From: Thermomicrobium sp. 4228-Ro | Lineage (GTDB): Bacteria > Chloroflexota > Chloroflexia > Thermomicrobiales > Thermomicrobiaceae | Reading direction: 5' to 3' | DNA: 64,000 nt | Assembly: GCF_026241205.1 (NCBI RefSeq) | Contig: NZ_JAPFQM010000001.1 | Location: forward strand, 620,001-684,000 | Part shown: piece by piece, positions 6,384 to 13,851 of the stretch | Layout: every line of letters starts with the position of its first letter | Position numbering within the stretch: position 1 is the stretch's first letter | Notes under the pieces: generated by a model | Told to the model about the DNA's origin: nothing | Database searches by the model: none | The model's input: the letters and a program-made list of their open reading frames with translations, nothing else | Program-made: the position numbers and the translations under genes

Positions 6384-6493
6384 CGCTCATCCAGAGCGGT
6401 GGAGGGAACGGCCCGACGAAGCCCGGCAACCAGCGCAGGCCACTGCGCCAGGTGCCAATGCCGGCGGAGCAGAGAGGCTCCGCACGATGAGCG
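6384..6493 (+). promoter_or_regulatory. SAM-I riboswitch (S box)
   Basis: The P1 helix pairs CGCTCATC (6384-6391) with GATGAGCG (6486-6493). Between them lie the conserved S-box elements in order: AGAGCGGTGGAGGGA, GGCCCGACGAAGCCCGGCAACC and GGTGCCAATGCC, followed by a P4-like hairpin rich in GGAGC/GCTCC. The element binds S-adenosylmethionine, and binding stabilises P1 and favours the downstream terminator. It sits in the leader of metX, so it should shut methionine synthesis when SAM is abundant. Confidence 0.93.
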
Positions 6494-10240: not shown

Positions 10241-11860
10241 TCACGGTGCGACCGGTACCAGCTGCGGGATCCTCGCCGCGACCTCAGGTCGCGTCACCAG
10301 CGGGTAGGCGAGGCTATCTGCCAGTGCGAGCCACGACGCTTCGATGATGTTTTCCGACGACCCGACCGTGTTCCAACTGCCTTGGGCATCTCCGGAGCGA
10401 ATCCAGACGCGTACTTTGGCTCCTGTCCCGTGGTGGTCGTCCAGCACGCGCACCTTGTAGTCCTCGAGCTCGACCTTCGCGATCTCCGGGTAAAACTCCT
10501 GCAGAGCCTTACGCGTGGCACGGTCGAGCGCATTCACCGGCCCGTTTCCTTCTGCTGCGGTGTGGAACACCTGGTCGCCGACCCGCAGCTTCACCATCGC
10601 TTCGGCGAGCATGCCACGTCCGTTGCGGTACTCGGTCAGCACAGTGTAGTCGAGGACTTCGAAGGGAGGCCGATAGTCCGGCAAGTTCCGCCGGATCAGG
10701 AGCTCGAGTGACGCATCGGCGTCTTCGAACCAGTACCCCTGGAACTCCAATTCCTTGATCTGCTCCAGGACGCGCCGCACCACCTCCGGCTTGTCGGAGA
10801 GTTCGATCCCGAAGCTCCGCGCCTTGACGATGATGTTGCTGCGGCCACTCAACTCGCTCACCAACACGTGCCGCGTATTCCCGACGACTTCCGGAGGCAT
10901 ATGCTCATAGGCTGACGGATGTTTGGCGATCGCGTTGACGTGCAGTCCTGCCTTGTGGGTGAACGCGAAGGCACCGACGAACGGCAGGCGCGGATCGTGC
11001 GTGAGGTTCGCGACCTCGGCCACGTAGCGAGACGTTTCGGTCAGCTTGCGCAACTGTCCCGGTGGCAGGCACCGGTAGCCGAGCTTGTACTCGAGGATCG
11101 GGATGATCGAGCAAAGATTGGCATTCCCGACTCGCTCACCGAGCCCATTGATCGTTCCCTGGACATGCGTCGCACCAGCCAGTACTGCCGCGATACTGTT
11201 CGCGACCGCCAGCTCGCAGTCGTTGTGCGTGTGGATCCCGACCGTGCAGGAAACCGCAGCGATCGCGTCACGGACAGCTCGTACCAGGGGATCGGTCAGT
11301 GTGCCACCGTTGGTATCGCAGAGCACGACAGCATCGGCACCGGCATCGCAGGCGGCTCGGAGCACCTCAAGCGCGTACTCGCGATCCTCGGCGTACCCAT
11401 CGAAGAAGTGCTCGGCATCGAAGATGACCTCGCGCCCAGCCCGCTTGAGGTAGGCAACCGACTCCGCCACCATGCGGAGATTCTCCTCGAGCGTCGTCCC
11501 GAGGATCTCGCGCACCTGGAACGACGATGCCTTGCCGACGATCGTGACCGTCGGCGTTTCGGCAGCGAGCAACAGTCGAAGATTCGCGTCGTCCTCGACG
11601 GCGATACCAGCCCGACGCGTGCTCCCGAATGCCACGATCCGCGCATGCTTCCACTGCTCGTGGCGAGCGCGCTCGAAGAACGCCATGTCCTTCGGGTTCG
11701 AGCCAGGCCAACCACCTTCGATGTAGGCAACGCCCAGCTCGTCGAGCGCGCGGGCGATCTTCAGCTTGTCCTCGGTAGTCAGCGAGACGCCTGAACCCTG
11801 CGTCCCGTCGCGCAGCGTCGTGTCGTAAATCGCCACCCATCGTCCCTCGTGCTCGTTCAT
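10241..11860 (-). CDS. cimA: (R)-citramalate synthase
   Basis: 539 residues, the usual CimA length. GGAGGAGGG precedes ATG 11860. The N-terminal TIM-barrel has the HMGL/LeuA signatures YDTTLRDGTQG, FDAEHFFDGY, VLCDTNGG and GIHTHNDCELAVANS (metal-binding His residues). The C-terminal LeuA-dimer regulatory domain runs from about residue 400 and includes EGNGPVNALDRATRKAL and GSSENIIEASWLALADS. CimA condenses pyruvate with acetyl-CoA to citramalate, giving a threonine-independent route to 2-oxobutyrate and isoleucine. It is preceded by its own promoter, an isoleucine-rich leader peptide and a strong hairpin, so it appears controlled by isoleucyl-tRNA charging. Confidence 0.93.
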   Translation of the reverse strand: MNEHEGRWVAIYDTTLRDGTQGSGVSLTTEDKLKIARALDELGVAYIEGGWPGSNPKDMAFFERARHEQWKHARIVAFGSTRRAGIAVEDDANLRLLLAAETPTVTIVGKASSFQVREILGTTLEENLRMVAESVAYLKRAGREVIFDAEHFFDGYAEDREYALEVLRAACDAGADAVVLCDTNGGTLTDPLVRAVRDAIAAVSCTVGIHTHNDCELAVANSIAAVLAGATHVQGTINGLGERVGNANLCSIIPILEYKLGYRCLPPGQLRKLTETSRYVAEVANLTHDPRLPFVGAFAFTHKAGLHVNAIAKHPSAYEHMPPEVVGNTRHVLVSELSGRSNIIVKARSFGIELSDKPEVVRRVLEQIKELEFQGYWFEDADASLELLIRRNLPDYRPPFEVLDYTVLTEYRNGRGMLAEAMVKLRVGDQVFHTAAEGNGPVNALDRATRKALQEFYPEIAKVELEDYKVRVLDDHHGTGAKVRVWIRSGDAQGSWNTVGSSENIIEASWLALADSLAYPLVTRPEVAARIPQLVPVAP

Positions 11861-11879
11861 GACCCTCCTCCAGACACCT

Positions 11880-11908
11880 GGCGGCCTCCCCGCGTCGGGG
11901 AGGCCGCC
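11880..11908 (-). terminator. Hairpin of the cimA attenuator
   Basis: A perfect 12-bp stem (11880-11891 with 11897-11908) with a 5-base loop, ending 8 bases before the cimA ribosome site on the minus strand. Its stability suits a terminator, but the following bases (AGGTGTCTGG) contain no T-tract. Termination by it is therefore less certain than at asd. Confidence 0.6.
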
Positions 11909-11965
11909 GTCACTCCGTTCGCGCTGATTACTCTTTCACACGCCTAGGGCTCGACCCTCCCCAAC
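11894..11965 (-). promoter_or_regulatory. Antiterminator pairing of the cimA attenuator
   Basis: On the minus strand GTTGGGGAGG (11965-11956), inside the last codons of the leader peptide, can pair with CCTCCCCGAC (11903-11894), forming 10 bp with one wobble. The second segment includes seven bases of the 5' arm of the 12-bp hairpin, so the two pairings exclude each other. A separate 6-bp hairpin (11974-11988) directly follows the isoleucine codons and could act as the pause hairpin. Confidence 0.6.
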
Positions 11966-12036
11966 GCCGCATACCCCGCCACGCGGGGCCGAATGATCGA
12001 AATAATCGCGATCGTCAGGTCGGGCCAGCGAGCCAT
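11944..12036 (-). CDS. Isoleucine-rich leader peptide of cimA
   Basis: A 30-residue frame from ATG 12036 to TAG 11946-11944, with GGAGGG (12052-12047) 10 bases upstream. It starts MARWPDLTIAIISIIRPR; five of seven consecutive residues are isoleucine (IAIISII, codons ATC and ATT at 12012-11992). The rest reads VAGYAALGRVEP. It starts shortly after a good promoter, and competing hairpins separate it from cimA. CimA is the entry enzyme of the citramalate route to isoleucine, so an Ile-codon sensor is a logical fit. The peptide and pairings are seen in the sequence; attenuation itself is inferred from ilv/thr leader precedent. Confidence 0.8.
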   Translation of the reverse strand: MARWPDLTIAIISIIRPRVAGYAALGRVEP

Positions 12037-12065
12037 CGGCGCCACACCCTCCAGTATTCCCTCGT

Positions 12066-12094
12066 AGCCTAAACCATGCTCCGTCGTTTGTCAA
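12066..12094 (-). promoter_or_regulatory. Promoter for cimA leader
   Basis: On the minus strand: TTGACA (12094-12089), 17-base spacer, TAGGCT (12071-12066). The predicted start, near 12059, is only a few bases before the ribosome site of the isoleucine leader peptide. It separates cimA from the upstream acetolactate-synthase-like gene. Confidence 0.75.
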
Positions 12095-12136
12095 GTACGA
12101 CGATCCACGGCTGACCGGATACTGCCGTCTCCGCCG

Positions 12137-13741
12137 TCAGACTGGAAAGTCGATCGGCACCTCGATCAACGTCGGCCGGGATCGGTTGAGCGCGGCGGTG
12201 ACAGCCTCGGTGAGCATGTCCGGGGATGTCGCTCGAACGGCCGGAATCCGATACGCCTCGGCCAGACGCAGGAAATCGGGATTCACGAGGTCGACCGCGA
12301 TGAAGCGACGCCCGTACGAGCGGGCCTGCTCGTCCTTCACAGCCGTATAACTCGCATCGTTGAAGAGGACGATCGGGATACCGAGCTCGAACTGTACCGC
12401 TGTCGCGACCTCCTGCATGGTGAACTGGAAGCCACCGTCACCGACGAGTGCGACTACGGCCGCCTCCGGGCGCGCGATTTTCGCACCGATCGCCGCGGGC
12501 AGCGCGAAGCCGAGTGTCCCGTAGCCGGTCGGGAAGAGATAGGTGCGGGGTTCGTAGACCGGATAGTGCCGGTTGCCGACGTACGCCATCATCGTCATGT
12601 CGTTGACCAGGATCCCGTCGCGTGGCAGCGCCGCGCGGAGCGCCCGCAGCCACTCGGCGTGCTCGGCGCCCCACGCCTGTTCGAGCGCTGCGCGCTTGCA
12701 CGCTGCGAGTTCCTCCACCGACCAACCCGAGCGCGAGATGCCGCGTGACGCCAGTGCCTCCAGCAACGCACGCGCAGCCGCCCGCACGTCAGCGAGGATG
12801 GCGAGACTCGGCGGATACTGGCGCAAAATCTCGCCCGCGTCGATATCGACGCGGATCCGGCGCTCCGGTAAGGGCAGCTTGCCGTTCTCGGTGTCCTGAG
12901 CCCCGAGCTTGGAACCGAACACGATGGCCAGATCGGCCTGCCGGAGCAGGCGATCGACCGGATTTCCAGCCTCCCAGAGATTGCCGAGGCAGCGCGGGTG
13001 ATCCTCCGGCACGGCCCCCTTCCCCTGGATCGTCGTGAGCACTGCCGCGCCCAGACGTTCGGCGAGTTCGACGAGTTCAGCACTCGCGCCGCTCGCCACC
13101 GCCCCGCCCCCGCAGTAGATAACGATGCGTTCGGACGCTTCGATCGCAGCGACCGCAAGCTCGACCGCCCCTGAGCTCGGTTGCGGTGCAATCCGCGCCG
13201 GTTGTTCCAGATGCGCAAGATCGATCTCACCCGTACCTCGGAGCACGTCGAGCGGGACTTCGACATGGGTCGGCCGGGGACGACCGTTGATCGCCTGGCT
13301 GAACGCCTCCCGGATGAGGGTCGGCACCTCCGGGACGCCGCGGGCGCGATCAGCCCACTTCGTGAGCACACGCATGATGCCGAGCTGGTCCCGGCAGTCG
13401 TGCAGGTGTCCGAGCATCTGTCCCTGCCAGTCCTGCTCGACGTTCGAGGCGATGACCACGAGCGGCGAGGAGTCCGCGTAGGCCTCCCCGACCGCAGTAG
13501 CGATGTTCGTCACGCCCGGGCCAGTGATGACGATCGCGACACCTGGCTTCCCGGATACCCGCGCATACCCGTCCGCCATGAAACCAGCACCCTGCTCGTG
13601 CCGAGCGAGAATGTGCCGGATCGGTGACGAATACAGTGCGTCGTAAATCGCCAGCGTGTGCACGCCTGGGATGCCGAACACGACCTCAACGCCTAACCGC
13701 TCCAGTGTGCGTACGACTGCCTCGCCACCGTGCACTCGCAT
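12137..13741 (-). CDS. Thiamine-diphosphate enzyme, acetolactate synthase-like catalytic subunit
   Basis: 534 residues from ATG 13741. The longer frame to 13822 would begin upstream of a TATAAT at 13784-13779, so the shorter start (or ATG 13753) is preferred. The three-domain ThDP layout is clear. An N-terminal pyrimidine-binding domain has the activating Glu in ILARHEQGAGFMADGYAR. A central domain has FGSKLGAQD. The C-terminal pyrophosphate-binding domain has GDGGFQFTMQE and NDASYTAVKDEQ. True IlvB has a small IlvN partner; none is nearby. Position beside cimA suggests branched-chain synthesis, but 2-oxoacid decarboxylases of this fold look similar, so the substrate is open. Confidence 0.75.
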   Translation of the reverse strand: MRVHGGEAVVRTLERLGVEVVFGIPGVHTLAIYDALYSSPIRHILARHEQGAGFMADGYARVSGKPGVAIVITGPGVTNIATAVGEAYADSSPLVVIASNVEQDWQGQMLGHLHDCRDQLGIMRVLTKWADRARGVPEVPTLIREAFSQAINGRPRPTHVEVPLDVLRGTGEIDLAHLEQPARIAPQPSSGAVELAVAAIEASERIVIYCGGGAVASGASAELVELAERLGAAVLTTIQGKGAVPEDHPRCLGNLWEAGNPVDRLLRQADLAIVFGSKLGAQDTENGKLPLPERRIRVDIDAGEILRQYPPSLAILADVRAAARALLEALASRGISRSGWSVEELAACKRAALEQAWGAEHAEWLRALRAALPRDGILVNDMTMMAYVGNRHYPVYEPRTYLFPTGYGTLGFALPAAIGAKIARPEAAVVALVGDGGFQFTMQEVATAVQFELGIPIVLFNDASYTAVKDEQARSYGRRFIAVDLVNPDFLRLAEAYRIPAVRATSPDMLTEAVTAALNRSRPTLIEVPIDFPV

Positions 13742-13778
13742 CGGATCCCCCATCCATCCTGTGCCGATCAGCGTCGCG

Positions 13779-13784
13779 ATTATA
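13779..13784 (-). promoter_or_regulatory. -10 element of the acetolactate synthase-like gene
   Basis: A perfect TATAAT on the minus strand (13784-13779), about 38 bases before ATG 13741. I see no good -35. Confidence 0.4.
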
Positions 13785-13851
13785 GAATCCGGGCGAGCGG
13801 CAGCATACGTCGCTCGCGTCAACCTGGAGTTCGAGGGGGACGGACACGCCA

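Follow-up and report, generated by a model that had tools for sequence, protein, structure and literature searches.

A candidate isoleucine-codon attenuator upstream of cimA in Thermomicrobium and related Thermomicrobiaceae

Does the leader of cimA in Thermomicrobium sp. 4228-Ro sense isoleucine, the product of the citramalate route, and if so by which mechanism? We analyzed a window of 64 kb (the whole stretch of DNA studied here), which is part of a 3.07-Mb genome. The regulated gene, at 10241..11860 on the minus strand, encodes a protein of 539 aa that scores 702 bits against the NCBIfam model TIGR00977 for citramalate synthase (cut-off 450). This agrees with the original prediction, which had named the gene cimA and proposed that the amino acid sensed matches the product of the pathway; five Ile codons are found in the leader. 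From the sequence comparisons and predicted folds described below, we consider it very probable that the cimA leader is a ribosome-mediated transcription attenuator of the ilv/leu type that senses charged tRNA-Ile. Such a leader should switch cimA on only when isoleucine is scarce.

Reading the minus strand from 12094 to 11861, we found in order a promoter, the Shine-Dalgarno-like motif GGAGGG, a short open reading frame (ORF), a hairpin, GCGTTGGGGAGG, the stop codon of the ORF, a terminator-type stem, the cimA Shine-Dalgarno sequence and the cimA ATG at 11860. The promoter consists of TTGACA (12094-12089), a 17-nt spacer and TAGGCT (12071-12066). The leader ORF has its own Shine-Dalgarno motif, start and stop, and runs from an ATG at 12036 to the TAG at 11946-11944 (11944..12036). 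It encodes 30 aa, MARWPDLTIAIISIIRPRVAGYAALGRVEP, and is rich in codons for the pathway product. Residues 9-15 read IAIISII and are encoded by ATC GCG ATT ATT TCG ATC ATT (11992..12012), placing Ile at positions 9, 11, 12, 14 and 15. A pause-type hairpin of 6 bp, CCCCGC-GTG-GCGGGG (11988-11974), lies directly 3' of these codons. The promoter, the 30-residue peptide with its Ile run and the 6-bp hairpin had been described in the original prediction and were confirmed.

Four segments account for the alternative pairings. Segment 1 (12011..12025) is the part of the ORF that pairs with the 5' arm of the antiterminator in the unconstrained fold, and could sequester it when no ribosome is present. 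Segment 2 is that 5' arm (GCGUUGGGGAGG, 11956..11967), predicted to form a duplex with the 5' arm of the terminator. Segment 3 (CCUCCCCGACGC, 11892..11903) is the 3' arm of the antiterminator and overlaps the 5' arm of the terminator. Segments 3 and 4 form the terminator-type hairpin, GGCGGCCTCCCC/GGGGAGGCCGCC (11908-11897 / 11891-11880), which has the 12 bp originally described and no T-tract. The competing antiterminator was also predicted correctly in kind, with a correction to its length: GCGTTGGGGAGG (11967-11956) pairs with CCTCCCCGACGC (11903-11892) over 12 bp including one G-U, instead of 10 bp.

An Ile run of this density is rare. The 64-kb window contains 815 short ORFs of 10-60 codons, of which the cimA leader ORF is the sole one with five Ile within seven residues, and no run of such density appeared in any frame in 5000 dinucleotide shuffles of 11861-12094. 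A pattern scan of the leader for promoters and terminators reported nothing. This null is a product of the consensus thresholds of the scanner, and the promoter was missed because TAGGCT matches TATAAT at just 3 of 6 positions.

We then compared the leaders of cimA orthologues. A search of 61 genomes of the order revealed that true CimA orthologues (70-100% identity) are confined to the Thermomicrobiaceae. The leader is present in all 14 orthologues with readable upstream DNA and in one further locus (L048), recovered by a covariance model and split over contigs in its genome (G010), which gives 15 readable leaders from four genera of this one Chloroflexota family. The promoter pattern TTGAC(A/G)-17/18-TAnnnT precedes each of them at a similar distance, so that every leader carries, by sequence pattern, its own promoter in front. 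Across genera the promoter and the leader are retained, whereas the DNA further upstream is different. All 15 have an Ile-rich short ORF at the equivalent position, with 4-6 Ile codons within the 10 codons preceding the hairpin. In summary, the Ile codons end just before the conserved CCCCG/CGGGG hairpin in every leader, and a GGGAG(G) antiterminator arm and a CCTCCC...GGGAGG terminator are likewise found throughout. The original prediction had staked itself on this comparison, and both the frame and the Ile run were kept in 15 of 15 leaders.

The pattern of codon change distinguishes what is conserved as peptide from what is conserved as RNA. Over the 15 leaders, Ile is encoded by 50 ATT and 21 ATC codons that alternate at the same positions, as expected if the amino acid is selected. 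The hairpin codons CCC CGC GTG GCG GGG are almost invariant at every base, as expected if the RNA structure is selected. These data also bear on whether the ORF encodes a conserved small protein or membrane peptide, in which the Ile run would be structural and the hairpins incidental. The hydrophobic Ile run and a conserved stretch I-R-P-R-V-A-G would suit such a protein, but the N-terminal part, the length and the C-terminus of the peptide show no conservation across the leaders. It is the hairpin that encodes the RPRVAG stretch, and in one leader (L013) an inserted base shifts the downstream frame and alters the peptide, yet spares the perfect hairpin CCCCGCC/GGGCGGGG. Moreover, the residues in paralogous leaders (see below) change to Leu or to a branched-chain mixture, depending on which gene follows. 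We regard a small protein as a very improbable explanation.

The hairpins are supported by the alignment. In 14 aligned leaders, 97.6% of cells in the pause-type hairpin and 96.4% in the terminator helix are paired; for both helices as drawn the value is 96.8%, and displacing the partners by 1-3 columns lowers it to 42-63%. The original prediction had suggested a search for covarying stems, and 3 of the 12 terminator pairs are changed on both sides. Covariation in this helix is modest, as the compared leaders are closely similar and rich in GC. The antiterminator duplex has a predicted energy of -30.6 kcal/mol in the window and of -20 to -33 kcal/mol across all 15 leaders. In two leaders of a sister genus (L016 and L048) it has shifted to GGGAGGCAU:AUGCCUCCC, with complementarity retained.

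To model the effect of translation, we folded each leader with the RNA under the ribosome footprint excluded, placing the ribosome at the first Ile codon, the last Ile codon or the stop codon. When it sits at the first Ile codon, the antiterminator is predicted to form before the 3' arm of the terminator is made in all 15 leaders, and at the last Ile codon in 14 of 15. A ribosome placed at the stop codon leaves no antiterminator in any of the 15, which is partly a consequence of the chosen footprint; where the stop lies 24 nt beyond the point at which the GGGAGG arm begins, only the 3' part of that arm would be covered. When no ribosome is present, the predicted fold pairs most of arm 2 elsewhere in 15 of 15 leaders, mainly with an upstream part of the ORF, although the position of this alternative partner varies between genera. 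Antiterminator and terminator share segment 3 and exclude one another, with the choice between them set, in these computations, by ribosome position. In the equilibrium fold of the finished leader the terminator is usually favored, also when a ribosome occupies the Ile codons, so the decision would have to fall during transcription, as in classical attenuators.

These parts suggest the following mechanism. A transcript would start about 20 nt ahead of the 30-codon leader ORF. When Ile-tRNA is plentiful, the ribosome would pass the Ile codons and reach the stop codon, where it would cover the antiterminator arm wholly or partly; the 3:4 hairpin would then form and transcription would end before cimA. 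When Ile-tRNA is scarce, the ribosome would stall on the Ile codons and disrupt the pairing of segment 1, and the freed arm 2 could capture segment 3 ahead of the synthesis of segment 4, allowing cimA to be transcribed. If the leader is not translated at all, arm 2 would be held by segment 1 and the terminator would form by default. The parts, their conservation, the match between codons and product and the mutually exclusive pairings are present at the locus. From them we infer that ribosomes stall on the Ile codons, that cimA responds to isoleucine and that transcription in Thermomicrobium stops at the hairpin.

The last of these points meets a difficulty that the original prediction had already named as its weak point, the missing T-tract. 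A canonical intrinsic terminator is a GC-rich hairpin followed directly by a U-tract. Thermomicrobium cimA leaders have no U-run after the terminator hairpin (in the window AGGTGTCTGG follows instead), and most relatives also lack a T-tract. In contrast, three leaders of the sister genus (L016, L017 and L048) carry TTTTTTT or TTTTTT directly after the hairpin and have the complete canonical form. The observation thus stands for Thermomicrobium and fails for these relatives, whose U-tracts suggest that the shared device is most simply read as an intrinsic terminator. We interpret the runs of 6 to 7 U in three relatives as largely settling the objection.

A related possibility is that the Ile-codon leader acts through another exit in Thermomicrobium, by Rho-dependent termination or by control of cimA translation, with no intrinsic termination. 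Besides the missing T-tract, the spacing would fit: just ~10-20 nt separate the end of the hairpin (11880) from the Shine-Dalgarno sequence (GGAGGAGGG) and start codon of cimA that follow it. That Shine-Dalgarno sequence, though, lies outside both alternative pairings, and the sister-genus orthologues show 6-7 U after the same hairpin. Short or broken U-tracts are also found at the leuA T-box and S-box terminators of these genomes: the tail of the leuA T-box terminator is UUU in Thermomicrobium versus UUUUUU in Sphaerobacter-like genomes, and the S-box hairpin in the window has only an interrupted U-rich tail, CTTCTTC, making it another U-poor terminator. We therefore consider a different exit unlikely and continue with transcription attenuation at the 3:4 hairpin. 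The S-box itself, a SAM riboswitch (RF00162, 81 bits), is located at 6384-6493 on the plus strand of the window.

The leader might also be a riboswitch or T-box that senses isoleucine or a tRNA directly, and T-boxes do precede leuA in the same genomes. Searches of 11800-12150 against Rfam at two thresholds, the looser one admitting E up to 10, found no family, apart from one chance-level sRNA match on the opposite strand. The T-box model RF00230, with its specifier loop and T-box antiterminator, gave no match at the cimA leader but matches the leuA leaders of the same genomes, and the stretch transcribed ahead of the ORF leaves no room for a T-box. Direct sensing is thus the least probable of the explanations considered, and ribosome-mediated attenuation remains the preferred one.

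If control codons report the pathway product, related leaders before other genes should carry other codons. We built a covariance model (R1) from cimA leaders alone and searched the class and the phylum; gene context played no part in this search. R1 matched before leuA (L049-L051), where the peptide contains Leu codons (...YLDLLGLFLLSLLRPLGGARGALGGCP); before ilvB (L052, ...LSTIISLVLITLPRG..., and L069, MFVPLVLLNLVLVVLLSLLVIII...), with Ile/Leu/Val codons; and before ilvE (L071, MHAFAVVIIFSELL...), with Val/Ile codons. The E-values of the phylum matches are weak (1e-3 to 1e-6). Within the Thermomicrobium genome itself, leuA has a Leu-codon leader (...SSLLRLSLSRPRGGATSDAGRA, L002) and ilvB (C1:371150) has a mixed Leu/Val/Ile leader (...SALALPVVGILVLTGLPSAGG, L082) ~350 bases upstream, with its own TTGACA/TAGGCT promoter and GGGAGG/CCTCCC switch. 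The leuA, ilvB and ilvE leaders (L049-L052, L069, L071 and L082, most of them found by R1) have their parts in the same order as the cimA leader and a comparable GGGAGG/CCTCCC core in the antiterminator; they differ in their control codons, Leu or a Leu/Ile/Val mixture depending on the gene, and those of leuA follow a T-box in tandem. Codon identity therefore tracks the pathway in paralogous leaders, alongside conservation beside the same gene.

Several other candidates were rejected. Among the weak R1 matches, at least L072 and L074 look like chance, and L053 and L054 are coding or unrelated. L055 and L078 represent the palindromic terminator read from the opposite strand. Nine leaders of the Thermomicrobiaceae type came out of a DNA pattern search across whole genomes, together with four matches (L056, L058, L064 and L068) that proved on reading to be unrelated coding or repeat sequence and were discarded. 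Outside this rejected set, two further loci, L070 (1501-1640) and L075 (1501-1635), have leader-like ORFs with CCTCCCG terminators. The first (ORF MSRELVLIVIVELPILIGSETTSGGSA) precedes a gene for a PucR/CdaR-like regulator and the second a gene that is similar by eye, which is unexpected for a branched-chain attenuator. Just upstream of cimA in the window, a gene at 12137-13822 on the minus strand encodes a TPP-dependent enzyme of the acetolactate synthase superfamily, with best matches to PRK08266/PRK07524 below their cut-offs. It is not the biosynthetic ilvB, which in this genome is the C1:371150 gene.

The leuA leaders revealed a second layer. The T-box model RF00230 scores above its gathering score upstream of leuA in ten Thermomicrobiaceae genomes including the present one (L002, L049, L050, L086, L087, L089, L090 and L094-L096), and the T-box core is visible in further leuA leaders (L051, L088 and L091-L093). 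Where the alignment is shown, the position that we take to be the specifier reads CUC, a Leu codon. Directly after the T-box come a Leu-codon short ORF and a second terminator-type hairpin (L049, L050 and L086-L097). In the Thermomicrobium genome this tandem occupies L002 3408-3181 (minus strand) and the stretch down to leuA. In open-access text, we found no earlier description of a leader-peptide attenuator placed behind a T-box. In other families of the order, three leuA regions (L020, L024 and L025) have a T-box core and a Leu-containing short ORF that ends in a GGCCCC/GGGGCC-type hairpin, with no second terminator evident. On balance, we favor the idea that all these attenuators descend from a single branched-chain device of ancestral Chloroflexota, which was duplicated along with the paralogous enzymes under its control and acquired new control codons (Leu for leuA, Ile for cimA, mixed for ilvB and ilvE). 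In the leuA tandem, two mechanistically unrelated sensors placed one after the other would both monitor the charging of tRNA-Leu on a single transcript.

The enterobacterial ilvGMEDA, ilvBN and leuABCD operons are controlled by ribosome-mediated attenuators. The cimA leader resembles them in having an ORF whose control codons match the product, 1:2, 2:3 and 3:4 pairings, and a terminator before the first structural gene. It differs in controlling cimA, in carrying Ile codons only, in its occurrence in Chloroflexota, in its extremely GC-rich arms and in the absent U-tract in Thermomicrobium, and we claim no sequence homology. Upstream ORFs with branched-chain codons and alternative RNA structures before a biosynthesis gene are also a feature of the ilvB-II, ilvB-OMG and ilvB uORF motifs, of which ilvB-OMG is known from various phyla (PMC10272879), and of the ilvB leader peptides described in Actinobacteria (PMC1262725). 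Those precede ilvB and use mixed branched-chain codons, whereas the present leader precedes cimA and uses Ile only. It has no Rfam match, and we set it apart from ilvB-OMG by description and not sequence by sequence. Codon changes in the Streptomyces coelicolor ilvB leader had no effect (PMC1262725), a warning that sequence alone is no proof of mechanism.

Our search of the open-access literature found no report on cimA attenuation, nor on attenuation in Chloroflexi or Thermomicrobium. The leader described here would bring the citramalate route to isoleucine, and the Thermomicrobiaceae (Chloroflexota), within the range of classical amino-acid attenuation. It also raises the question of what lets GC-rich hairpins act as terminators in a thermophile when their U-tract is short or missing. 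The family may offer a natural experiment, in which related leaders are built on one chassis and the control codons track the downstream gene.
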